Positions 4,755 to 42,361 of a DNA stretch of 64,000 bases are shown in pieces (the stretch's first letter is position 1; each line of letters starts with the position of its first letter). The position numbers and the translations under genes are program-made. Origin of the DNA: Oscillospiraceae bacterium (GTDB taxonomy: Bacteria; Bacillota; Clostridia; Oscillospirales; Oscillospiraceae); the NCBI GenBank assembly GCA_022846075.1, contig AP025582.1:1054001-1118000 (forward strand), given 5' to 3'. The notes under the pieces are model-generated. The model was not told the origin of the DNA and ran no database searches. It worked only from the letters and a program-made list of their open reading frames with translations.

Positions 4755-6557
4755 TTACATTTTCACGATGGCGTCAAAGCGGCAGTTGGACATACACACG
4801 CCGCACTTGATGCACTTGGTCATATCGATGGTATAGGTAGCCTTGAGGGCGCCGGTGATGGCGCTGGCCGGACAGTTGCGGGCGCACAGGGAGCAGCCCC
4901 GGCACTTGTCGGGCTGGATGTAGTAGCGGATGAGGTTCTTGCACACCCCGGCGGGGCACTTCTTGTCCACCACGTGGGAGATGTACTCCTCACGGAAGTA
5001 CTGGAGAGTGGACAGCACCGGATTGGGGGCCGACTGGCCCAGGGCGCACAGGGCGGACTCCTTCAGGTGGTAGCACAGCTCCTCGATGGTGTCCAGATCC
5101 TCCATGGTGCCGTTGCCGTCGGTGATCTTGCAGAGGAGGTCGTACAGCCGCTTGGTGCCGATGCGGCAGGGGGCGCACTTGCCGCAGGACTCATCCACGA
5201 TAAAGGAGAGGAAGAACTTGGCGATGTCCACCATGCAGTTGTCCTCGTCCATGACGATGAGGCCGCCGGAGCCCATCATGGAGCCGATGGCGGTGAGGGA
5301 GTCGTAGTCGATGGGGGTGTCGATGAGCTGGGCGGGGATGCAGCCGCCGGAGGGGCCACCGGTCTGGGCGGCCTTGAACTTCTTGCCGCCGGGCACGCCG
5401 CCGCCGATGTCCTCCACGATGGTCCGGAGGGTGGTGCCCATGGGGACCTCGACGAGGCCGGTGTTGGTGATCTTGCCGCCCAGGGCAAAGACCTTGGTGC
5501 CCTTGGACTTCTCAGTGCCGATGGCGGCGAACTCCGCCGCACCGTGGTTCAGGATCCAGGTGATGTTGGCGTAGGTCTCCACGTTATTGAGGAGGGTGGG
5601 CCGCTGGAAGAGGCCCTTCACCGCCGGGAAGGGGGGGCGGGGCCGGGGCTCGCCCCGGTGGCCCTCGATGGAGGTCATGAGGGCGGTCTCTTCACCGCAG
5701 ACGAAGGCGCCGGCCCCCAGCCGCAGCTCGATGTCGAAGGAGAAGTCGGAGCCCAGGATGTTCTTGCCCAGCAGGCCGTAGTCCCGGGCCTCCTCGATGG
5801 CCTTTTGGAGCCGCTTGACGGCGATGGGGTACTCGGCCCGGACGTAGATGTAGCCGTCGGTGCCGCCCACGGCGTAGGCGGCGATGGTCATAGCCTCCAG
5901 CACGGAGAAGGGGTCGCCCTCCAGCACGGAGCGGTCCATGAAGGCGCCGGGGTCACCCTCGTCGGCGTTGCAGCAGACGTACTTGATGCCGTCTGGGCTG
6001 ACGGCGTCCTTGGTGAACTGCCACTTGGTGCCCGTGGGGAAGCCTGCGCCGCCCCGGCCCCGCAGGCCGCTGGCCTTGATGGCGTCCACCACAGCCTGGG
6101 GGTCCACCTTGTTCTCCAGGATATTGCCCAGGGCCAGATAGCCGTCGGCGCCGATGTACTCGTCGATGGACTCGGGGTCGATGACGCCGCAGTTCCGGAG
6201 CGCGATGCGCTGCTGGTGCTGGTAGAACTGGGTGTCGGCCAGGGAGGTGACCGCGTCGCCGCCGTCCCCCTCCATGTGGAGGAGGCGCTTGACGATGCGG
6301 CCCTTCACCAAATGCTCGTGGACGATCTCGGGCACGTCCTCGGGGGTGACCCGGCTGTAACAGGCACCCTCGGGGAAGATCATGACGATGGGGCCGATGG
6401 CGCACAGGCCGAAGCAGCCGGTGCGGACCACCTTGACCTCCTTATCCAGCTTGGCCTTCTGGAGCTGCTCCTCAAAGGCGTCGATGATCTTGGGGCTGTC
6501 GGAGGAGGTGCAGCCGGTGCCGCAGCACACCATGACGTGGGAACGAATCCTGCTCAT
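4755..6557 (-). CDS. hydB: Hydrogenase NADH-binding subunit (NuoF-like)
   Basis: A 600-residue NuoF homologue that couples NAD(H) to the hydrogenase. In order: an N-terminal thioredoxin-like 2Fe-2S domain (CCGTGCTSS and CFGLCAIGP), the NADH/FMN domain with GRGGAGFPTG and the CNADEGDPGAF FMN loop, the SLBB region, the 4Fe-4S motif ESCGKCAPCRIGT, and two C-terminal ferredoxin clusters (CRGCSLCARNCP, CIKCGVCMSNC). This domain set is that of HydB in electron-bifurcating hydrogenases, where NADH and reduced ferredoxin are oxidised together. It precedes hydA by 14 bases. Confidence 0.95.
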   Translation of the reverse strand: MSRIRSHVMVCCGTGCTSSDSPKIIDAFEEQLQKAKLDKEVKVVRTGCFGLCAIGPIVMIFPEGACYSRVTPEDVPEIVHEHLVKGRIVKRLLHMEGDGGDAVTSLADTQFYQHQQRIALRNCGVIDPESIDEYIGADGYLALGNILENKVDPQAVVDAIKASGLRGRGGAGFPTGTKWQFTKDAVSPDGIKYVCCNADEGDPGAFMDRSVLEGDPFSVLEAMTIAAYAVGGTDGYIYVRAEYPIAVKRLQKAIEEARDYGLLGKNILGSDFSFDIELRLGAGAFVCGEETALMTSIEGHRGEPRPRPPFPAVKGLFQRPTLLNNVETYANITWILNHGAAEFAAIGTEKSKGTKVFALGGKITNTGLVEVPMGTTLRTIVEDIGGGVPGGKKFKAAQTGGPSGGCIPAQLIDTPIDYDSLTAIGSMMGSGGLIVMDEDNCMVDIAKFFLSFIVDESCGKCAPCRIGTKRLYDLLCKITDGNGTMEDLDTIEELCYHLKESALCALGQSAPNPVLSTLQYFREEYISHVVDKKCPAGVCKNLIRYYIQPDKCRGCSLCARNCPASAITGALKATYTIDMTKCIKCGVCMSNCRFDAIVKM

Positions 6558-6570
6558 ACGCCTGCCCCCC

Positions 6571-6939
6571 TTATTCCGCGGCCCCGATGGTGTACTCGGT
6601 GACCACCCGGTGATTGACCAGGTGCTCGCCCACCACGATGGGGACCATATCGGGCTTCATCTTCACGTAAGTGACCTTTTCCTCGCCGGGGACGTAGACC
6701 TCCACGATGGGCTCCAGCCGGCACACGCCGATGCAGCCGGTCTGGGCCACGGTCACGTTGTGGAGGCCCCGGTGGTCGATCTCCTCGAGAAAAGCGGCCA
6801 GCACGGGCTTGGCGCCGGCGGCGATGCCGCAGGTTGCCATGCCGACCACCACCCGGATGTTGTCGCCGGACTGGTCCCGGATGTCCATCTGCTGTTTCAT
6901 CTTTTCCCGGATGGCTTTCAGTTCTTCCAGGCTCTTCAA
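6571..6939 (-). CDS. Thioredoxin-like 2Fe-2S ferredoxin of hydrogenase operon
   Basis: A 122-residue protein with the Cx(n)C...Cx3C layout of thioredoxin-like [2Fe-2S] ferredoxins: GMATCGIAAGAKP and QTGCIGVCRLEP. Related proteins are found between hydC and hydB in many clostridial hydrogenase operons and probably pass electrons within the complex. Translation starts at TTG (6939), which is 10 bases after AAGGAG. It is 13 bases upstream of hydB. The spacer upstream (6940-7068) holds a dispersed repeat that separates it from the ATPase gene. Confidence 0.85.
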   Translation of the reverse strand: MKSLEELKAIREKMKQQMDIRDQSGDNIRVVVGMATCGIAAGAKPVLAAFLEEIDHRGLHNVTVAQTGCIGVCRLEPIVEVYVPGEEKVTYVKMKPDMVPIVVGEHLVNHRVVTEYTIGAAE

Positions 6940-34789: not shown

Positions 34790-36136
34790 ATGAAGGTAAT
34801 TGAAGGTAAGACATTGGAGGAGTGGGAGCGTGCCGTCCCGGCCATCCGGGACCTGACTGCCCTGCGGGAGACCATGTGGCTGGACGGGCACAAGCTCCCG
34901 GCGTCCCAGGCCGCCGGGGCGTGCCCCCTGGGGATGCCGGACATCCGGGAGGCTGAGGCCAGGCTGGCCCGCTTTGCCCCCTATCTGGCGAAGGTGTTCC
35001 CCGAGACGGAGCAGGCGGGGGGCATCCTGGAATCCCCCCTCCGGGAGATCGGCGGGATGGCCGAGGAACTGGGGGTTGAGGGGACCCTCCTGCTGAAGTG
35101 TGACAGCCACCTGCCCGTTTCCGGCTCCATCAAGGCCCGGGGCGGCATCTACGAGGTGCTGTGCGTGGCCGAGCGGATCGCCCTGGAGAGCGGGATGCTC
35201 ACCCTGGAGGAGGATTACAGGGTCCTGGCCGAGCCCCGGTTCGTGGAGCTCTTTTCCAAGTACGGCATCGCGGTGGGCTCCACCGGCAACCTGGGCCTGT
35301 CCATCGGCATCATGAGCGCCAAGCTGGGCTTCCGGGTCACGGTCCACATGTCGGCCGACGCCCGGCAGTGGAAGAAGGACATGCTGCGCAGCAAGGGCGT
35401 CACGGTGGTGGAGTATTCGGACGATTACAGCAAGGCCATCACCGAGGGGCGGGCCCAGGCGGAGAAGGACCCCTGCTGCCACTTCGTGGACGACGAAAAC
35501 TCCAAAAACCTCTTCCTGGGCTACGCGGTGGCGGCGCTCCGGCTGAAAAAGCAGCTGGAGGAGCGGGGGACTCCCGTGGATGAGGCCCATCCGCTGTTTG
35601 TCTACCTGCCCTGCGGGGTAGGCGGCGGCCCCGGGGGTGTGGCCTTTGGCCTGAAACAGGTCTTTGGCGACCACGTCCACTGCTTCTTTGCCGAGCCCAC
35701 CCACGCCCCCTGTATGACGCTGGGCATGGCCACCGGCCTCCACGCCCAGGTGTGCGTCAACGATTTCGGCATCGACAACCGCACCGCCGCCGACGGCCTG
35801 GCGGTGGGGCGCCCCTCTCAGTTCGTGGGCAAGCTGATAGAGCCTTTCCTGTCCGGGTGCTATACCATTTCCGACGAGCACCTGTACCGTCTGCTGACCA
35901 CCCTGGCCGACCGGGAGGGGATCCATCTGGAGCCCAGCGCCCTGGCCGGAATGACCGGCCCCGGATGGATCCAGGACAGCAAGCCGGGTAAGGAGTACCA
36001 GCGCCGGGAGGGCCTGACCGGCAGACTGCCGGAGGCGACCCACATCGTCTGGGCCACCGGCGGCAGCATGGTCCCGGCGGCTGACTGGCAGGCGTATTAT
36101 CAAAGAGGCAGGCAGCTGCTTGCGGACAACGCGTAA
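34790..36136 (+). CDS. dsdA: D-serine ammonia-lyase (D-serine dehydratase)
   Basis: A 448-residue PLP enzyme converting D-serine to pyruvate and ammonia. The PLP lysine is Lys115 in SGSIKARGG; the phosphate-binding glycine loop is [12 protein letters not shown]; the N-terminal domain [22 protein letters not shown] is DsdA-specific. Length and layout match DsdA rather than threonine dehydratase. It is last in the operon after an NhaC-type transporter, and ends at a 14-bp terminator. No DsdC regulator is near; the XRE-cupin at 31635 is the likely substitute. Confidence 0.95.
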
Positions 36137-36210
36137 AAACCGCTTCGGCGCGGGGCCGCCCTCAGAAAGAAGCGCGCGGCTTCCCTGTGCCCTTTCGCAA
36201 TGAGTGCTGT

Positions 36211-36250
36211 AAGGAACCCCGGCATCCGTCAGGATTGCCGGGGTTCCTTT
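36211..36250 (+). terminator. dsdA operon terminator
   Basis: AAGGAACCCCGGCA pairs perfectly with TGCCGGGGTTCCTT, followed by TTGC. Confidence 0.9.
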
Positions 36251-36362
36251 TGCTTTCTCTGGAAATGCCATAGGAAAGATTTTGCGTGCCCTCTGTGGCG
36301 GTTTTTCCTTTCTGGGTTCAGTCCTTGCGGGCCGGTGGCCTCTGCCTGTGACTAGAAATTCA

Positions 36363-36391
36363 TTGCTTTTTTACCGGTTCTGACGTAAAAT
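36363..36391 (+). promoter_or_regulatory. mscS promoter
   Basis: TTGCTT at 36363-36368, 17 bp, TAAAAT at 36386-36391. The rest of the 36251-36437 gap shows nothing else. Confidence 0.65.
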
Positions 36392-36437
36392 AATCGGTAT
36401 TGAACACCATCGACGGGAAAGGGGGGAGGCGCGGGAC

Positions 36438-37289
36438 ATGCCGAACGGAACAGATTCCACTGAGACCACGCAGACGGTTTGGAATATCCTGACCCTTCTG
36501 AAAAAACAGCTCATCAGCTGGGAGAGCCTTCTGGAGCTGGCGCTTCTGTTGGCGGTGTGCCTGATTGCGGTGAAGGTTCTGATGGCTCTGGCCAGGCGGG
36601 CCATCTCCCGGACATCCCTGGATAAGAGCGCCCATCGGTTCCTCCTCTCGGCCCTGCGGGGGGTGCTGCTGCTGGTGGTCCTGTGCGTCCTGCTGGGCTA
36701 TCTGGGGATCCCCACAGCCTCCCTGGTGGCGGTGCTGGGCGTGGCCGGACTGGCGCTGTCCCTGGCCCTCCAGGGTATCCTGGCCAACCTGGCGGGGGGC
36801 TTGATGCTCCTGGGGTCCAAACCCTTTACGGCGGGGGACTACGTGGAGGCCGGCGGGGTCAGCGGCACCGTTGTGGAGATCGGGCTTGTCTACACCAAGC
36901 TGAGCACGGTGGACAACAAGATCATCTTTGTGCCCAACGGGGAGATCTCCGCCAAGACCATCGTCAACTATACCTCTGCCGACAAGCGTCAGATCGAGCT
37001 GAAGTTCAGCGCCTCCTATGACGCGCCTCAAAAGACGGTAAAGGAGTGTATCGCCCGGGTGGTGGGGGAGCACCCCAAGACCCTGCCCACGCCGGAGCCC
37101 CTCATTCGGGTCTGCCGGTACGGCGACAGCTCCATCGAGTATATCCTGCGGGTCTGGTGCGCCACCGAGGATTACTGGCCGGTCTACTACGACCTGCTGG
37201 AACAGGTGAAGGAGGCCTTTGACGGAGCCGGGGTGGAGATGACCTATAACCATCTGAACGTCCATTTGCGAAAGGAAAAAGGAGAATAG
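36438..37289 (+). CDS. MscS-type small-conductance mechanosensitive channel
   Basis: A 283-residue MscS homologue. Three membrane segments occupy about residues 30-120; the pore helix is GLALSLALQGILANLAGGLMLL with the alternating Gly/Ala packing of TM3, followed by the beta domain with KPFTAGDYVEAGGVSGTVVEIG and FVPNGEISAKTIVNYT. It would release solutes on hypo-osmotic shock. GGGAGG precedes the ATG. It is 3 bases upstream of a membrane protein gene, so the two form an operon. Confidence 0.93.
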   Translation: MPNGTDSTETTQTVWNILTLLKKQLISWESLLELALLLAVCLIAVKVLMALARRAISRTSLDKSAHRFLLSALRGVLLLVVLCVLLGYLGIPTASLVAVLGVAGLALSLALQGILANLAGGLMLLGSKPFTAGDYVEAGGVSGTVVEIGLVYTKLSTVDNKIIFVPNGEISAKTIVNYTSADKRQIELKFSASYDAPQKTVKECIARVVGEHPKTLPTPEPLIRVCRYGDSSIEYILRVWCATEDYWPVYYDLLEQVKEAFDGAGVEMTYNHLNVHLRKEKGE

Positions 37290-37292
37290 ACC

Positions 37293-37862
37293 ATGGGAAG
37301 TAACACGAGCGCCGCCGGGAAGGGCCTGCGGCTGGTATTCTGGGGAAATCTTCTGCTGGTGGCCTCGGCGGTTCTGGCCTGTGTGGCGGCGCTGGGGCCG
37401 GTGATCACCGTCCTGTACGTGGCCGTCGGCCTGATCGGCCTGGTCCTGTCGGCCCTGGGGCTGGCCAAGGCTATGTCGGTCCACGGGGGCTACCGCACGG
37501 CCCTGTTCTTTATCCTGATCGTGCTGGTCTGCGATGTGCTGGCCGCCATCACGGGGAGCTGGGTCTACCTGCTGCTGCGGGCCGTTTCCGCCATCGTGTC
37601 CTACATGGGCATGGCCTACGTCTGCGACTCCACCGTCCAGCTGTGCATGGGCGAGCGGGGTATGGCCGATCTGGAGGACAAGGCCCGGAAGATGTACCTG
37701 GGCTGCGCCGCCGTGGTGGTATTCTGCCAGCTTTTGAGCGTGGTGAACGCCCTGGGGGACATGGGAGGCTTTATGAACCTGCTGTCCCGTGTGGTGCAGG
37801 CCATCGGGTGCATCTATTACATGTACTTCCTCCATCTGGGGAGCAAGGCCCTGGCGAGATAA
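37293..37862 (+). CDS. Unrecognised integral membrane protein
   Basis: A 189-residue protein with about five hydrophobic segments (for example LLLVASAVLACVAAL, VLYVAVGLIGLVLSALGL, LFFILIVLVCDVLAAI). I do not recognise the family. A conserved-looking polar stretch, CMGERGMADLEDKARKMYLG, sits between TM3 and TM4. Co-transcribed with mscS, so a membrane or osmotic role is possible but unproven. AAAAGGAG precedes the ATG. Confidence 0.75.
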   Translation: MGSNTSAAGKGLRLVFWGNLLLVASAVLACVAALGPVITVLYVAVGLIGLVLSALGLAKAMSVHGGYRTALFFILIVLVCDVLAAITGSWVYLLLRAVSAIVSYMGMAYVCDSTVQLCMGERGMADLEDKARKMYLGCAAVVVFCQLLSVVNALGDMGGFMNLLSRVVQAIGCIYYMYFLHLGSKALAR

Positions 37863-37895
37863 GAAAAAGGGTGCCCTGAAAAGAAAATGCCATGT

Positions 37896-37930
37896 AAAAA
37901 GGAGCCAGTTTACAAACTGGCTCCTTTTTT
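37896..37930 (+). terminator. Terminator of the mscS operon
   Basis: AAAAAGGAGCCAGTTT and AACTGGCTCCTTTTTT form a long stem with a T run. Confidence 0.93.
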
Positions 37931-38155
37931 GTATTTATAAGGGCGAGAGGCTATTAGGCTGGGGCAAATGTTGATACACCCCATTATATTCCAACAAAAA
38001 AGAGGGGCGTGCCCAGGATGGTCTATCAATATGATTGGATGACGAATCAGCCCTGAAAGACTTATTGAGGGAACAGGCGTGAAGCAGGTCATTCTTAAAA
38101 ATACCGCTTTGGATTTCAAATAAACAAACTTAACTATGACATAATTTGTAAGGGA
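37931..38155 (+). other. AT-richer spacer before the AIPR-like gene
   Basis: No gene with a start signal is seen. Base use is visibly less GC-rich than in the flanking genes, matching the AIPR-like gene downstream; it may be part of the same acquired segment. Confidence 0.45.
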
Positions 38156-38184
38156 TTGACAAATCAAGACGAATTTGGTATTAT
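38156..38184 (+). promoter_or_regulatory. Promoter of the AIPR-like gene
   Basis: TTGACA at 38156-38161, 17 bp, TATTAT at 38179-38184, predicted start near 38191. Confidence 0.8.
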
Positions 38185-38190
38185 GCAGGT

Positions 38191-38302
38191 GTCGGCTGGA
38201 TAGCGGGCAGGTAAAACATGCACCTGGATAGGTTCTGGAAATATTGTGATTATGTATTTCAAGAGCCGACTTGTATAGTTGGCTCTTTTTGTTTCCAGAA
38301 CC
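38191..38302 (+). promoter_or_regulatory. Candidate transcription attenuator in the leader
   Basis: A terminator stem AAGAGCCGACT (38261-38271) / AGTTGGCTCTT (38277-38287) plus TTTTT lies between promoter and start codon. GTCGGCT at 38191-38197, at the very 5' end of the transcript, is perfectly complementary to AGCCGAC (38264-38270) in the terminator's left arm and could act as an antiterminator. An outer pair GGTTCTGGAAA (38231) / TTTCCAGAACC (38292) encloses the terminator. The switch ligand or signal is unknown. Confidence 0.6.
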
Positions 38303-38325
38303 GCAATAATGAAAGGAGACAAAAC

Positions 38326-39723
38326 ATGTTGAACAGAAACACAAGCGTCATTATCAAGTTCGATTTTTCCACTGAGCAGACAGTCGGAGAAATCACCAAG
38401 ATCGTCGGGCTTACCAAGGCCAAGTATCTTATTCCTGTCATTGATTCCCTGGACCTGGAAGCAAATCCTCGTTCTTCCAAAACCGGCCCTGTAACCGATG
38501 CGATTCAGGAATCGATCGAAACAGATCCCGATGTTTTCCCCTTTAAGACAAAAGGCATTCTGCTCGCAGCGTCTCAGTATGAACGGCTGGATAGGGGCCG
38601 CGTCAAAGTAACTCCTGATAATCCTAATATTGAGGGGATTCTGGACGGTGGTCACAATGCGCTTGCCATCGGCCTGCATATCCTGAAAAAGGCGATGGAG
38701 CATGGGGAGGTGTCTTTCCCCAAGGGGGCAAAGACGTGGGACGAGTTCAAGCAGTTGTGGCAGGCGAACCGGGATGTGATTGATGAATATCTGGATGCCG
38801 TGAGAAAAGAGCCTGATATCGGTAGTCTGAACTTTTATGTGCCGGTTGAGCTTCTGGTTCCCCGCAGTGCGGATGAACTGGCCTCTGTTGAAGCTTTCAA
38901 AAACGACCTGCTGGAAATCTGTGCGGCAAGAAACAATAATGTGCAGCTGCAAGTATCCGCCAAGGCAAACCAGCTGGGGTATTTCGACGCATTGAAGTCC
39001 CTCATGGATAAGCGCAATCCTGCCCTCAGCAATCGAATCGAGTGGAAAACCAATGATGGCGGCGACATTAAGGCGCAGGATATTATTGCGCTGGCATGGA
39101 TTCCCTTGAACCTTATTACGCCGGTCAAGGACGCAAACGGGAGAACGCTTGAACCCGTCCTCGCACAGAATATTTATCGGGGAAAAGGCGGCTGTCTGAA
39201 GCAATTCGAGAAGCTGATGAGCTCCCCGGAAGTTACTGCTGAAACTTCTGGGGATTACAAGCGGGAGCTTGAAAATCTCGAAGTGGGTTCTGCATTTAAA
39301 ATTGCGGTTGAGCTGCCTGAACTTTACGATTATATCTATGCGGTGTTCCCTGAGCTGTACAATGCCGCTGGCGGCAGTTACGGACGGATTACCGCCGTTA
39401 AAAAGCTGAATGAAAAGCGGAAGGACAAGAGGACCCCGTACACCGATGTCGAGATTGAGACCATTAGTCCCGAGGGGTTTATTGTCCCGCTGGTGTATGG
39501 GCTTCAGGCGTTGATGGAAAAATATGAGGACAACGGGCGAAGCGAGATCCGTTGGACGCATACGCCAAAGATTTTTCTTCAGAATAATCTGAAGAAAATC
39601 GTTGCTCATTATGCGGGCATTTTTAGTATGTGTGACTACGATCCTCAGAAGATCGGCAAAAATCCTCAAAGCTACGCGCAGGCGCTGGCCGGTTTCAAAA
39701 TGGCCATTGCAGGTATCCTTTAA
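38326..39723 (+). CDS. AIPR-like (abortive infection phage resistance family) protein
   Basis: A 465-residue cytoplasmic protein. Its order of motifs follows the AIPR family: AIQESIETDPDVFPFKTKGI (family: polar helix, PELF, NNGI), then NIEGILDGGHNALAI in the place of the NGxQT motif, then AARNNNVQLQVSAKANQ for the TNxQN segment. The DGGHN form is close to the DGQHR motif of another defence-linked family. AIPR proteins have been linked to phage resistance; biochemistry is not settled. Codons are less GC-biased than in the neighbours. It stands alone, with its own promoter and leader terminator. GAAAGGAG lies 7 bases before the ATG at 38326; the frame is open upstream to an ATG at 38218 inside the leader. 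Confidence 0.65.
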   Translation: MLNRNTSVIIKFDFSTEQTVGEITKIVGLTKAKYLIPVIDSLDLEANPRSSKTGPVTDAIQESIETDPDVFPFKTKGILLAASQYERLDRGRVKVTPDNPNIEGILDGGHNALAIGLHILKKAMEHGEVSFPKGAKTWDEFKQLWQANRDVIDEYLDAVRKEPDIGSLNFYVPVELLVPRSADELASVEAFKNDLLEICAARNNNVQLQVSAKANQLGYFDALKSLMDKRNPALSNRIEWKTNDGGDIKAQDIIALAWIPLNLITPVKDANGRTLEPVLAQNIYRGKGGCLKQFEKLMSSPEVTAETSGDYKRELENLEVGSAFKIAVELPELYDYIYAVFPELYNAAGGSYGRITAVKKLNEKRKDKRTPYTDVEIETISPEGFIVPLVYGLQALMEKYEDNGRSEIRWTHTPKIFLQNNLKKIVAHYAGIFSMCDYDPQKIGKNPQSYAQALAGFKMAIAGIL

Positions 39724-39736
39724 TCATTAATTGCCA

Positions 39737-39780
39737 AGAAAAAAGACCCCCGCCCACTTTCAAAAAGTCGGGCGGGGGTC
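39737..39780 (-). terminator. Terminator of the DUF4830 gene
   Basis: GACCCCCGCCC pairs with GGGCGGGGGTC; the T run (TTTTTTCTT) is on the minus strand. Plus-strand reading from the AIPR-like gene has no T run. Confidence 0.85.
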
Positions 39781-39852
39781 AACTGCTTTGCTGAGCAAAA
39801 CAGCTTCCTGCTTATCTCGATTACATTGTTTGGAAAGGGCGCCCTTTCTGCG

Positions 39853-40323
39853 TCATCCCGGCATGGCCAGGCCGTGGAGGAAATCCTCGCCCACGATCTC
39901 ACCGGCCACCACCGTGTTCTTGCAGATCAGCAGGTGGGCCCGGACCCCGGTCTCCCCGGTGGGATAGTTCAGGATATCGTAAGTGTAGCGCTTGATCCGC
40001 TTGCCCGCGTACTTTGTCAGGTCGAAGCCCTGGTCCGCCTGGAGGGACATGTACTGGTCGTACTCCGGGCCAAATTCCTTGGGGAGCTCCAGCTCCTCCA
40101 CCTCCGCCGCGTCGTCCGGCACCTGCCAGCCCCAGGCCGCCAGGTAGGCCGCCCGGTCCTCCGCCGTCTTGACCCCTTTGGGGCTCACCGCGGCGGAGGC
40201 CGCCGTTCCCCTCGTGCCCAGGAACACGGCCGCCAGCACCGCTCCGCAGAGCACCACCGCGCCCACCAGGACCAGCGCCGTCTTGCGCCGGTCGATCTTT
40301 GCTGTCCAAATAAACACCGCCAT
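39853..40323 (-). CDS. DUF4830 domain membrane-anchored protein
   Basis: A 156-residue protein with one N-terminal membrane helix (TALVLVGAVVLCGAVLAAVFL) and an extracytoplasmic domain typical of DUF4830: AEDRAAYLAAWGWQV, LPKEFGPEYDQYMSLQADQG, GKRIKRYTYDILNYP. Function unknown; members are common in Clostridia. Single gene with its own terminator, divergent from the pseudouridine synthase gene. Confidence 0.8.
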   Translation of the reverse strand: MAVFIWTAKIDRRKTALVLVGAVVLCGAVLAAVFLGTRGTAASAAVSPKGVKTAEDRAAYLAAWGWQVPDDAAEVEELELPKEFGPEYDQYMSLQADQGFDLTKYAGKRIKRYTYDILNYPTGETGVRAHLLICKNTVVAGEIVGEDFLHGLAMPG

Positions 40324-40414
40324 CGCCCCTTTATTCAGCCTTGCTCAATTTCTATGGGAAATGGGGCGGAAATATGATAAGATAGAGCCAAAGAAAAAAC
40401 AGGGGGGCGGCATC

Positions 40415-41128
40415 GTGGAACGCCTGGATAAGATATTGACCAATACCGGTCGGTGGTCCCGGAAAGAGGCCGCCGAGCTGATCCGCACCGGACGGGTGAC
40501 GGTGGACGGGGCCGCCGCCCTCCGGCGGGAGGAGAAATTTTCCGAGGGGGCCCGGTTTCAGGTGGACGGGGAGGAGCTCTCCGGGGAAAAGCGGGTGTAC
40601 CTGATGCTCCACAAGCCGGCGGGCCTGGTCTCGGCCACCGACGACCCCAGGCAGCCTACCGTCCTCTCCCTTCTGCCCGAGCACCTGCGGCGGGTGGGGC
40701 TCTTCCCGGCGGGACGGCTGGACAAGGACACGGTGGGCCTGCTGCTCCTCACCAACGACGGCGCCCTGGCCCACGGCCTTCTCTCCCCCCGCCGCCATGT
40801 GGACAAGACCTATCTGGTGCGGGTGGACGGGGCGCTGGACGAGGGGGACGAGCGGGCCTTCCGGGAGGGGATGACCCTCCAAAGCGGCCTGCGCTGCCTG
40901 CCCGCCGGGCTGGAGCGGCTGGGCCCGGGGGAGGCGCTGGTGACCCTGCGGGAAGGGAAATACCATCAGATCAAGCGGATGATGGCCGCCCGGGGAAAGC
41001 CGGTGGTGTTCCTCAAGCGGCTCACCTTCGGCCCTCTGGTTCTGGACGAGGCCCTGGCCCCCGGCCGGTGGCGGGAGCTGACCGGGGCGGAATTGAAGGC
41101 CCTCCGGGCCGCCGGTGGGACAGAATAA
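40415..41128 (+). CDS. RsuA-type 16S rRNA pseudouridine synthase
   Basis: A 237-residue enzyme: an S4 RNA-binding domain (ERLDKILTNTGRWSRKEAAELI) and a catalytic domain with the motif-II aspartate in AGRLDKDTVGLLLLTNDG, then YHQIKRMMAARG. The lineage RsuA/RluB/RluF isomerises uridines in rRNA; the position here is most likely U516 of 16S. Start is GTG at 40415, just after a G-rich AGGGGGGCGG. The frame is open for 246 bases upstream but there the opposite strand is coding. Confidence 0.92.
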   Translation: MERLDKILTNTGRWSRKEAAELIRTGRVTVDGAAALRREEKFSEGARFQVDGEELSGEKRVYLMLHKPAGLVSATDDPRQPTVLSLLPEHLRRVGLFPAGRLDKDTVGLLLLTNDGALAHGLLSPRRHVDKTYLVRVDGALDEGDERAFREGMTLQSGLRCLPAGLERLGPGEALVTLREGKYHQIKRMMAARGKPVVFLKRLTFGPLVLDEALAPGRWRELTGAELKALRAAGGTE

Positions 41129-41170
41129 AATGAGATTCGGCATTTTCCACAAAAATCTTTCAATTTGCTA

Positions 41171-41199
41171 TTGAAAAGGGAGAAAAAAGCCGTTATAAT
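41171..41199 (+). promoter_or_regulatory. Promoter of the CdaR-type gene
   Basis: TTGAAA, 17 bp, TATAAT at 41194-41199. Confidence 0.8.
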
Positions 41200-41269
41200 A
41201 AAAGGCGTTGAGTGTTGTAAACCAAAGATTGACCGCCCGGGTGGGAATTAAAGCAAGGAGGCATTCCAG

Positions 41270-42361
41270 ATGTCCAACAGGATCTTTCAGAGTGTCGTTT
41301 TACAGATGAAGGAAGGGACGGACCGGGCGGTAGGCGTCATCGACGCCGAAGGCACTGTCGTAGCCTGCGACGAGCTCTCTCTGATCGGAGAGCGCTGGGG
41401 CGGCGTGGTGGACCAGCTCAATGCCGCCGACGGCGGCATGGTCCACTATGAGGGACGGACCTTCAAGACCCTGGCCAGCTGGGGCGCCCAGTTCGACTAT
41501 GCCGGTTTTGTCCAGGGGGAGGACGACTTCGCCCGCTCCCTGTGCCACCTGGCCGCCGTGGCCTTCAACGGGGCCAAGCAGAGCTATGAGGAGAAGCACG
41601 ACAAGGGGACCTTTGTCAAAAACATCATCTCCGACAACATCCTCCTGGGGGATATCTATGTTCGGGCCAAGGAGCTGCACTTCGTGTGCGACGTGCCCCG
41701 GGGGGTCTTCCTGGTGCGGCAGGCCGAGCCCGCCGACCCGGCCATGATCGACGCCATCCAGGCCATGTTCCCCGATAAACAGATGGACTTCGTGCTCTCC
41801 ATCAGCGAGACCGACGTGGCCGTCATCAAGCAGCTTCCCGAGGGGACCGAGGGCAAGCGGCTGGATAAGATCGCCCAGCAGATCGAGGAGGGCCTGGTGT
41901 CCGAGCTGGATCTGAAGGCGGTGGTGGGCATCGGCACGGTGGTCACCAACATCCGGGACCTGGCCCGCTCCTACAAGGAGGCCCAGATGGCCATCGAGGT
42001 GGGCAAGGTCTTTGACACCGAGCGCAGCGTCATCAACTACGACAACCTGGGCATCGGGCGGCTCATCTACCAGCTGCCCACCACCCTGTGCGAGATGTTC
42101 CTCCAGGAGGTCTTTAAGAAGAACCCCATCGACGCTTTGGACCAGGAGACCCTCTTCACCATCAACAAATTCTTCGAGAACAACCTGAACGTGTCCGAGA
42201 CCGCCCGGAAGCTCTTCGTCCACCGCAATACCCTGGTGTACCGGCTGGAGAAGATCAAGAAGCTGACGGGGCTGGACCTGCGGGAATTTGACGACGCCAT
42301 CACCTTCAAGGTGGCCCTGATGGTCAAGAAGTACCTGGTCTCCCGGGGCATCGACAACTAA
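41270..42361 (+). CDS. CdaR/PucR-type helix-turn-helix regulator
   Basis: A 363-residue protein. The C-terminal DNA-binding domain is the PucR-type HTH_30: FFENNLNVSETARKLFVHRN followed by TLVYRLEKIKKLTGLDLREF. The centre (about 165-275) resembles the degenerate GGDEF-like domain of CdaR regulators (VGIGTVVTNIRDLARSYKEAQ). The N-terminal sensor part is not recognised. CdaR proteins activate sugar-acid use; here the next genes are ftsEX, separated by an inverted repeat, so the target is unknown. GGAGG lies 9 bases before the ATG. Confidence 0.85.
   Translation: MSNRIFQSVVLQMKEGTDRAVGVIDAEGTVVACDELSLIGERWGGVVDQLNAADGGMVHYEGRTFKTLASWGAQFDYAGFVQGEDDFARSLCHLAAVAFNGAKQSYEEKHDKGTFVKNIISDNILLGDIYVRAKELHFVCDVPRGVFLVRQAEPADPAMIDAIQAMFPDKQMDFVLSISETDVAVIKQLPEGTEGKRLDKIAQQIEEGLVSELDLKAVVGIGTVVTNIRDLARSYKEAQMAIEVGKVFDTERSVINYDNLGIGRLIYQLPTTLCEMFLQEVFKKNPIDALDQETLFTINKFFENNLNVSETARKLFVHRNTLVYRLEKIKKLTGLDLREFDDAITFKVALMVKKYLVSRGIDN

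Follow-up and report, generated by a model that had tools for sequence, protein, structure and literature searches.

An AIPR-like gene in the 64,000-nucleotide stretch of an Oscillospiraceae genome analysed here (the window) is preceded by a leader that is a real, conserved and new family of structured RNA. We are highly confident that, in Bacillota, this leader is built as an anti-antiterminator attenuator in front of the AIPR-like gene. Computation shows small hairpins with GGAY tetraloops that covary and, among the genes examined, are restricted to one protein subfamily, an antiterminator and a terminator that are both conserved, and a promoter whose position places the RNA start at the first hairpin (Table 1). 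A preliminary description of the locus had seen an attenuator- or riboswitch-like layout, or the source of an RNA of about 100 nt. That layout is supported by the comparison of homologues, because the terminator and a mutually exclusive antiterminator are conserved in Bacillota and the promoter starts the RNA at HP1; the antiterminator that it named is a different one and was not supported. Its promoter, its 11-bp terminator with a T run and its start codon at 38326 all stand as described.

Table 1. Features of the leader and gene, in window coordinates
Feature	Position	Strand	Remarks
Sigma-70-type promoter, TTGACA-17-TATTAT, extended -10	38156..38184	+	11/12 match, TG before -10
HP1, first GGAU-tetraloop hairpin	38191..38208	+	3 pairs, G.G mismatch, 3 pairs; at predicted transcription start
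HP2, second GGAU-tetraloop hairpin, ACCU-GGAU-AGGU	38222..38233	+	anti-antiterminator
Shared strand, GGTTCTGGAAATA	38231..38243	+	HP2 3' arm, antiterminator 5' arm and 5' arm of outer helix P3
Antiterminator 3' arm, TATTTCAAGAGCC	38255..38267	+	conserved; overlaps terminator left arm
Intrinsic terminator and T run	38261..38290	+	stem 38261-38287, 11 pairs; inside leader
P3 distal arm, TGTTTCCAGAACC	38290..38302	+	partner of 38231-38243 after read-through
Shine-Dalgarno AGGAG	38314..38318	+	predicted paired more than in control ORFs
AIPR-like gene	38326..39723	+	465 aa; conserved motifs NxR, LDGGHN, ARNNN, IEWKTNDGG, DPQKxGK

A subfamily of AIPR-like proteins

As far as the available text of PMC3506569 goes, AIPR genes are counted among phage-defence genes, are linked to DndB and have a predicted RNase-like HEPN domain; in the available portions of the literature examined, AIPR activity and its control are not settled. 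The window gene had been called AIPR-like, a label that is marginal by Pfam: the protein scores 22.7 bits against AIPR (PF10592), with a cut-off of 25, over the N-terminal part of AIPR only, and 25.5 bits when neighbouring pieces are summed in frame. Profile and fold comparison nevertheless place it, as a predicted member, with the AIPR family. Distant AIPR genes score 59–128 bits with a profile built from 13 homologues, and a DGGH core is common to the 465-aa protein and the AIPR/AbiU1 family (PF10592). In fold comparison, an AlphaFold2 model of the protein (pLDDT 89.7) matches a viral ‘AIPR protein’ best (E 7.5e-8; TM 0.46–0.56), and the window protein would thus, as modelled, have an AIPR fold. 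Searches with the protein gave no match in the PDB at E ≤ 0.001, where neither the profile nor the fold search was convincing, no match in PADLOC or NCBIfam and one weak match in PHROGs; phage records searched with the window protein and the L026 protein gave nothing useful.

The subfamily comprises 20 distinct members: the window gene and loci L013–L028, L029, L101 and L102. Loci L030 and L031, identical to L029 at the gene, were counted once with it, and the set does not include another three Roseomonas plasmids whose match figures equal those of L014. Members come from Clostridia, Bifidobacteria, Selenomonas, Roseomonas, other alphaproteobacteria, a beta- and a gammaproteobacterium and an acidobacterium; L027–L029 are viral contigs, and the L029 protein is 37% identical. 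The L101 leader is 95% identical to that of L013 and is not an independent case.

The gene is single-copy in its own 3.23-Mb genome, and the subfamily is rare among the genomes searched. Eight of 400 genomes of the family matched, with the only intact subfamily member in the window’s own genome; the remaining matches are a relic in genome G069, where only the last 51 codons are left with a promoter-like sequence before them, and otherwise distant AIPR genes. Two more members were found at order level (394 genomes) and no further ones at class level (391 genomes) or phylum level (398 genomes), these sets overlapping one another. At an empty site in G305, a genome of the same genus, the matched flanks lie 131 bp apart, compared with 2,019 bp in the window. 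Both the RNA and the gene are missing there, so that the two appear to be gained and lost as one unit.

The neighbouring genes hint, by sequence likeness, at a role in defence. The gene overlaps the next gene at the stop codon in two of the 12 loci listed. Locus L023, from Rhodospirillales, has a 418-aa gene without a Pfam match and then an SNF2 helicase like BrxH/DrmD (L023:7362-11452). In L028, a viral contig, the gene is directly followed by one for a PLD-SNF2 protein resembling the HKD-SNF2 model (L028:5368-8511). In L027, another viral contig, the second gene downstream (6183-6884) resembles part of the PADLOC endonuclease-effector models and has no Pfam hit. These three arrangements are candidate defence operons.

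GGAY-tetraloop hairpins in the leader

Small hairpins capped by GGAY, one to four per leader, occur in 17 of the 20 homologues. Hairpins with at least four pairs and a GGAU or GGAC loop, counted over the 250 nt upstream of the gene in 18 members, number 31 and lie in 16 leaders; 1,000 dinucleotide shuffles average 0.98 and never exceed 5. Of 707 control pieces taken from these loci, 4% had one such hairpin and none had two. A count of tetraloops without a preset motif (at least four Watson–Crick pairs) put GGAU first with 18, the next loops having 2 each. Counted independently of hairpin selection, GGAY sites are capped on a stem in 31 of 56 cases in 17 leaders and in 28 of 1,453 elsewhere. 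The closing pair is always pyrimidine–purine and the next pair is C–G in 22 of 31, giving a rough consensus CYGGAYRG.

The number and placement of the hairpins differ among members. Four are present in L020 and both are present in L101; in the window, HP2 alone passes the four-pair cut, HP1 having three pairs under the loop and then a mismatch. HP2 has another loop in L014, L022, L023, L027 and L028, in which GGAY is confined to the other hairpins. No GGAY hairpins were found in the leader of L029, nor in those of L016 and L102, in which the contigs start 142 and 151 nt before the gene and other sequence is found. An inverted-repeat hairpin occupies the place where HP1 and HP2 would be expected in these two contigs beginning about 150 nt before the gene (L016:1-80 and L102:1-110), and is perhaps an insertion element.

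In an alignment of 16 rows, 97.9% of the 96 cells of the HP1 stem are paired, a percentage that partly reflects selection, as rows were picked as the first GGAN hairpin (a later one in L014). The HP1 covariation score is 1.05, compared with 0.34 in shuffles (0 of 500 as high) and 0.12–0.27 in slid controls. All six HP1 pairs show a change on both sides, which alone is not unusual (4.3 in shuffles, with 43 of 500 reaching six).

No Rfam family matched the leader at the gathering threshold in the window or in 11 loci. Across 37860-38400 there were 17 Rfam matches at E ≤ 10, the best in the leader being L20_leader at 17.8 bits, compared with 58.7, and PyrR was not among them. A covariance model built from six leaders (R1) recovers, beyond those six, the leaders of L101 (E 9e-12; near L013), L028 (0.012), L023 (0.046) and L022 (0.063), with weak leader matches (E 0.24–6.3) in L020, L027, L026 and L025, two off-leader matches in L028 (E 0.14 and 7.6) and no leader match in L014, L016, L018, L024, L029 or L102. 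Applied with strict filters to 99 related genomes, R1 returned the window and three weak matches (E 0.03–0.08), at about chance level. A pattern of HP2 plus CTGGAA matched 44 stretches in viral contigs, none of which encoded a homologue within the sequence available; with up to two mismatches allowed, it matched the window’s own genome 13 times, compared with 24 for the reversed control, and was exact at the locus only.

Eleven distant AIPR genes (L004–L009 and L033–L037, second pieces of the same genes being excluded from the count) have no such hairpin set; L033 has a single GGAC hairpin at the Shine–Dalgarno sequence and L035 a single GGAG hairpin. Among the genes examined, GGAY hairpins are restricted to this protein subfamily.

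A promoter placed at the first hairpin

In 15 of 16 leaders, the highest-scoring promoter candidate within 45 nt upstream of HP1 has a -10 element that ends 3–8 nt short of the hairpin. Twelve of the 16 candidates reach individual significance (P ≤ 0.03); those of L021 and L018 are weak, and those of L026 and L025 do not surpass shuffles. Between the upstream gene and the module, the window also holds a strong 15-pair hairpin with a T run (37896-37929), likely the terminator of the upstream gene.

Mutually exclusive folds in Bacillota

The leader folds more stably than its shuffles (z = -3.8, 0 of 200). In six Bacillota leaders, 59 of 60 hand-aligned terminator cells are paired and compensatory changes are present. 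A terminator scan of the last 200 nt found the element in all eight Bacillota leaders, weakly in L102; the same scan of 12 leaders outside Bacillota found none, except for a weak match at HP1 of L027.

When the leader is cut after the left arm of the terminator, the minimum-free-energy (MFE) fold is the antiterminator in each of five leaders (the window, L013, L015, L021 and L020), with the 3' arm of HP2 and UCUGGAAA, or its equivalent, pairing with the left arm of the terminator. The energy of this pairing is better than that of shuffled arms in each of the five (P 0.004–0.024), and its sum (-70.4, compared with -54.3) is better than all of 1,000 null sums. In all five the antiterminator shares bases with HP2 and with the terminator, and three sequential, mutually exclusive hairpins are thus found in five of five Bacillota leaders that have the region.

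The predicted balance between these folds varies. The gap between antiterminator and HP2 at the pause is 1.1 kcal/mol in the window, 3.1 in L013, 4.9 in L015, 3.6 in L021 and 7.1 in L020, gaps that protein binding could cover. For the complete leader up to the point of termination, HP2 together with the terminator is the MFE fold in the window and L021 and, in L015, comes within 0.3 kcal/mol of it; L020 favours the antiterminator as MFE fold even here, and in L013 the terminator wins without HP2. RNAalifold on a MAFFT alignment showed the antiterminator and misplaced the terminator.

The outer pair of 11 bp that had been described around the terminator (38231-38241 with 38292-38302) is present and extends to 13 bp in the window (P3). 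It reaches at least 8 bp in 11 of 12 leaders, compared with a null mean of 2.9 and a maximum of 7, but no more than 5 of the 12 are significant (P ≤ 0.01) when taken singly; the comparison omits L016, L018, L024, L025, L026 and L029, in which HP2 was not identified. Of the pairings in the preliminary description, this one and the terminator thus survived the check for covariation and conservation among homologues, and the third, which involves GTCGGCT, failed it.

Outside Bacillota, the Shine–Dalgarno sequence is predicted to be paired more than in controls (mean 0.80 in eight bifidobacterial and alphaproteobacteria-like leaders, compared with 0.57 in 40 control ORFs; P 0.006). Pairing is equally high in the Bacillota leaders with terminators, and 17 leaders together give 0.78, compared with 0.56 in 114 controls; the controls, first-ATG ORFs of the same loci, are rough.

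Proposed mechanism and alternatives

In the mechanism that we propose, RNA polymerase would start transcription at HP1 and, once it had passed 38267, the shared strand could pair with the 3' arm of the antiterminator and the gene would be read. If the AIPR-like protein bound the GGAY loops of HP1 and HP2, HP2 would be held closed; with the strand occupied, the terminator would form, only an RNA of about 100 nt would be made and the protein would switch off its own gene. Scarcity or titration of the protein, for example by a phage infection that changes RNA pools, would permit more read-through, after which the shared strand could pair with the distal arm of P3. Translation may be the step that this sensor controls outside Bacillota, where the GGAY hairpins are kept, the terminator is absent and the Shine–Dalgarno sequence is predicted to be paired. 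The RNA of about 100 nt may also serve as a partner or antitoxin, as in RCd22–AbiF.

We give this self-regulated mechanism, taken as a whole, an even chance. That the encoded protein is the ligand of the GGAY hairpins seems probable. The repeated loop on changing stems suggests a protein site, and the encoded protein is the simplest ligand because the RNA follows the protein subfamily across phyla, distant AIPR genes lack the hairpin set and CsrA is mostly missing. Binding would favour termination, and the gene would act in phage defence. CsrA, the known binder of GGA loops, was rejected as a general ligand and is unlikely: it is absent from six of seven genomes (the window’s own and five of six others) and present in that of L020. 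A wider proposal, which we advance tentatively as a possibility, is that GGAY hairpins and AIPR-like proteins form ribonucleoproteins of an undescribed family of RNA–protein defence modules, found in at least Bacillota, Actinomycetota, Pseudomonadota and Acidobacteria, in which the same RNA would be sensor, attenuator and antitoxin or cofactor; in the Rhodospirillales member and in two related viral contigs, helicase or nuclease effectors encoded downstream would be under the control of this RNA–protein pair.

Alternatives to the self-regulated attenuator differ in what the RNA would do and what it would sense. The RNA of about 100 nt could be mainly trans-acting, as an antitoxin of the type III kind or an obligate cofactor, with the terminator only setting the ratio of RNA to protein. 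This reading is compatible with attenuation and, although rather unlikely, draws on the succession of promoter, small structured RNA, terminator and protein gene that is shared with RCd22–AbiF and type III systems, on the two hairpin motifs of RCd22 and its action on AbiF in cis and in trans (as the accessible part of that report has it), on a repeated motif that varies from one to four copies and on the degraded relic in G069. Such a terminator would not need the conserved antiterminator, however, and is lacking from the 12 leaders outside Bacillota (apart from a weak hit in L027); the repeated units are short hairpins that have the tetraloop in common but unlike stems, rather than head-to-tail sequence repeats of about 35 nt. 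That the leader senses another factor, a host RNA-binding protein or a small molecule, is improbable. Riboswitches and ribosomal-protein leaders typically join a sensor to a terminator in some members and to a paired Shine–Dalgarno sequence in others, yet the RNA follows the AIPR-like gene through several phyla, R1 finds little beyond the window in related genomes, a constant loop on unlike stems, present in varying numbers, does not resemble a small-molecule pocket and CsrA, as noted, is mostly missing.

Very improbable, too, is attenuation by a leader peptide, in which ATG 38218 would be translated and the ribosome would choose between the folds. This ATG is in frame with the gene and opens a 501-aa ORF spanning HP2 and the terminator, and peptides beginning MHLDRFWK or MKNLDRFWK lie at HP2, with a weak Shine–Dalgarno sequence, in the window, L013, L101 and L017. 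An ORF above threshold is found in only 4 of 17 leaders, which led us to reject it as a general mechanism; moreover, L013 and L101 are close relatives, the stems change with compensation and HP1 precedes the ORF. The switch of the preliminary description, an antiterminator between GTCGGCT (38191) and AGCCGAC (38264), is hardly credible. The complement exists, is perfect over seven bases and, for Watson–Crick matches of the first 25 nt to the left arm of the terminator, is better than 99% of shuffles (P 0.0095); L020 has a different seven-base match (P 0.01). No pairing of this type is found in L013, L015 or L021, however, 16% of shuffles equal the match once any stretch of the leader may partner the left arm and G–U pairs count (P 0.16), and forcing it costs 8.9 kcal/mol relative to the terminator fold; we rejected it on these three grounds. 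GTCGGCT is instead the left arm of the conserved HP1, a hairpin absent from that description, as were the GGAY hairpins common to homologues across phyla and the anti-antiterminator role of HP2. A chance hairpin or leftover terminator has a negligible probability: the region 36000-42000 has no more terminator-like sites than its shuffles (7 compared with 6.7), but the conservation and covariation counts in homologues refute it.

Comparison with known systems

CsrA- and RsmA-binding leaders present GGA in hairpin loops, several per leader. The leaders described here are alike in having several GGA loops and differ in that the loop is always preceded by a pyrimidine, besides the general lack of CsrA. 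Four distant AIPR genes on Bacillota plasmids (L034–L037) have an annotated divergent HTH gene instead of the RNA, and RNA may replace a repressor in the subfamily of the window. By eye, an HTH-like sequence also lies upstream of two distant AIPR genes (L004 and L033), and three others, from genomes of the same bacterial family (L005, L007 and L009), have a terminator-like hairpin leader just before the gene, without GGAY hairpins; the leaders of these three are possibly further RNA leaders of AIPR genes. Among the records listed on AIPR/PF10592, GGAU tetraloops and defence attenuation, mostly papers outside subscription and accessible in part, no description of an RNA leader of an AIPR gene was found.

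In type III toxin–antitoxin systems (ToxIN, AbiQ and CptIN), an RNA, a terminator and a protein gene share one operon and the RNA units are repeated, according to the accessible text of PMC5086642. Here, that arrangement of RNA, terminator and protein gene is confined to the Bacillota members. Tandem sequence repeats of the kind described there were not found in the leaders, in which the loop is repeated on unlike stems as capped hairpins, and no PADLOC model matches the protein.

Closer in its order of parts is RCd22–AbiF of Clostridioides difficile, in which, as set out in the available sections of PMC12373285, a SigA promoter is followed by an RNA of about 100 nt with two hairpin motifs, a terminator and a defence protein; read-through yields the mRNA, RCd22 binds and neutralizes AbiF in cis and in trans, and the authors call the element riboswitch-like. 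AbiF belongs to Abi_2 rather than AIPR, those sections describe no antiterminator for RCd22, and the covariance model of abiF RNA (RF03085) had no match in the window or 11 loci.

The logic of the leader is that of the PyrR-controlled pyr attenuator of Bacillus subtilis. As given in the accessible parts of PMC7430163 and PMC4347634, A–B is the anti-antiterminator, B–C the antiterminator and C–D the terminator, and the protein that holds the anti-antiterminator is a product of the regulated operon; the leader here has the same mutually exclusive chain of GGAY hairpin, antiterminator and terminator. Compared with the PyrR leader in those sources, it has no Rfam match and carries GGAY tetraloops instead of the PyrR site ARUCCAGAGAGGYU, and the AIPR-like gene, whose product is the putative binder, does not encode a phosphoribosyltransferase. 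The second hairpin of L014, L022, L023 and L028, with a GAGA-type loop on a C/G-rich stem, is slightly like the PyrR site, possibly by chance.

A conserved RNA with a simple, mutable loop motif provides a handle on these genes, as it predicts the target of the protein and how the gene stays quiet, and offers a route to further members by RNA rather than protein. What is new is the RNA family; the kind of control is already known. If the encoded protein is the ligand, a product-controlled attenuator like that of PyrR would be added to defence genes, beside RCd22–AbiF and ToxIN.
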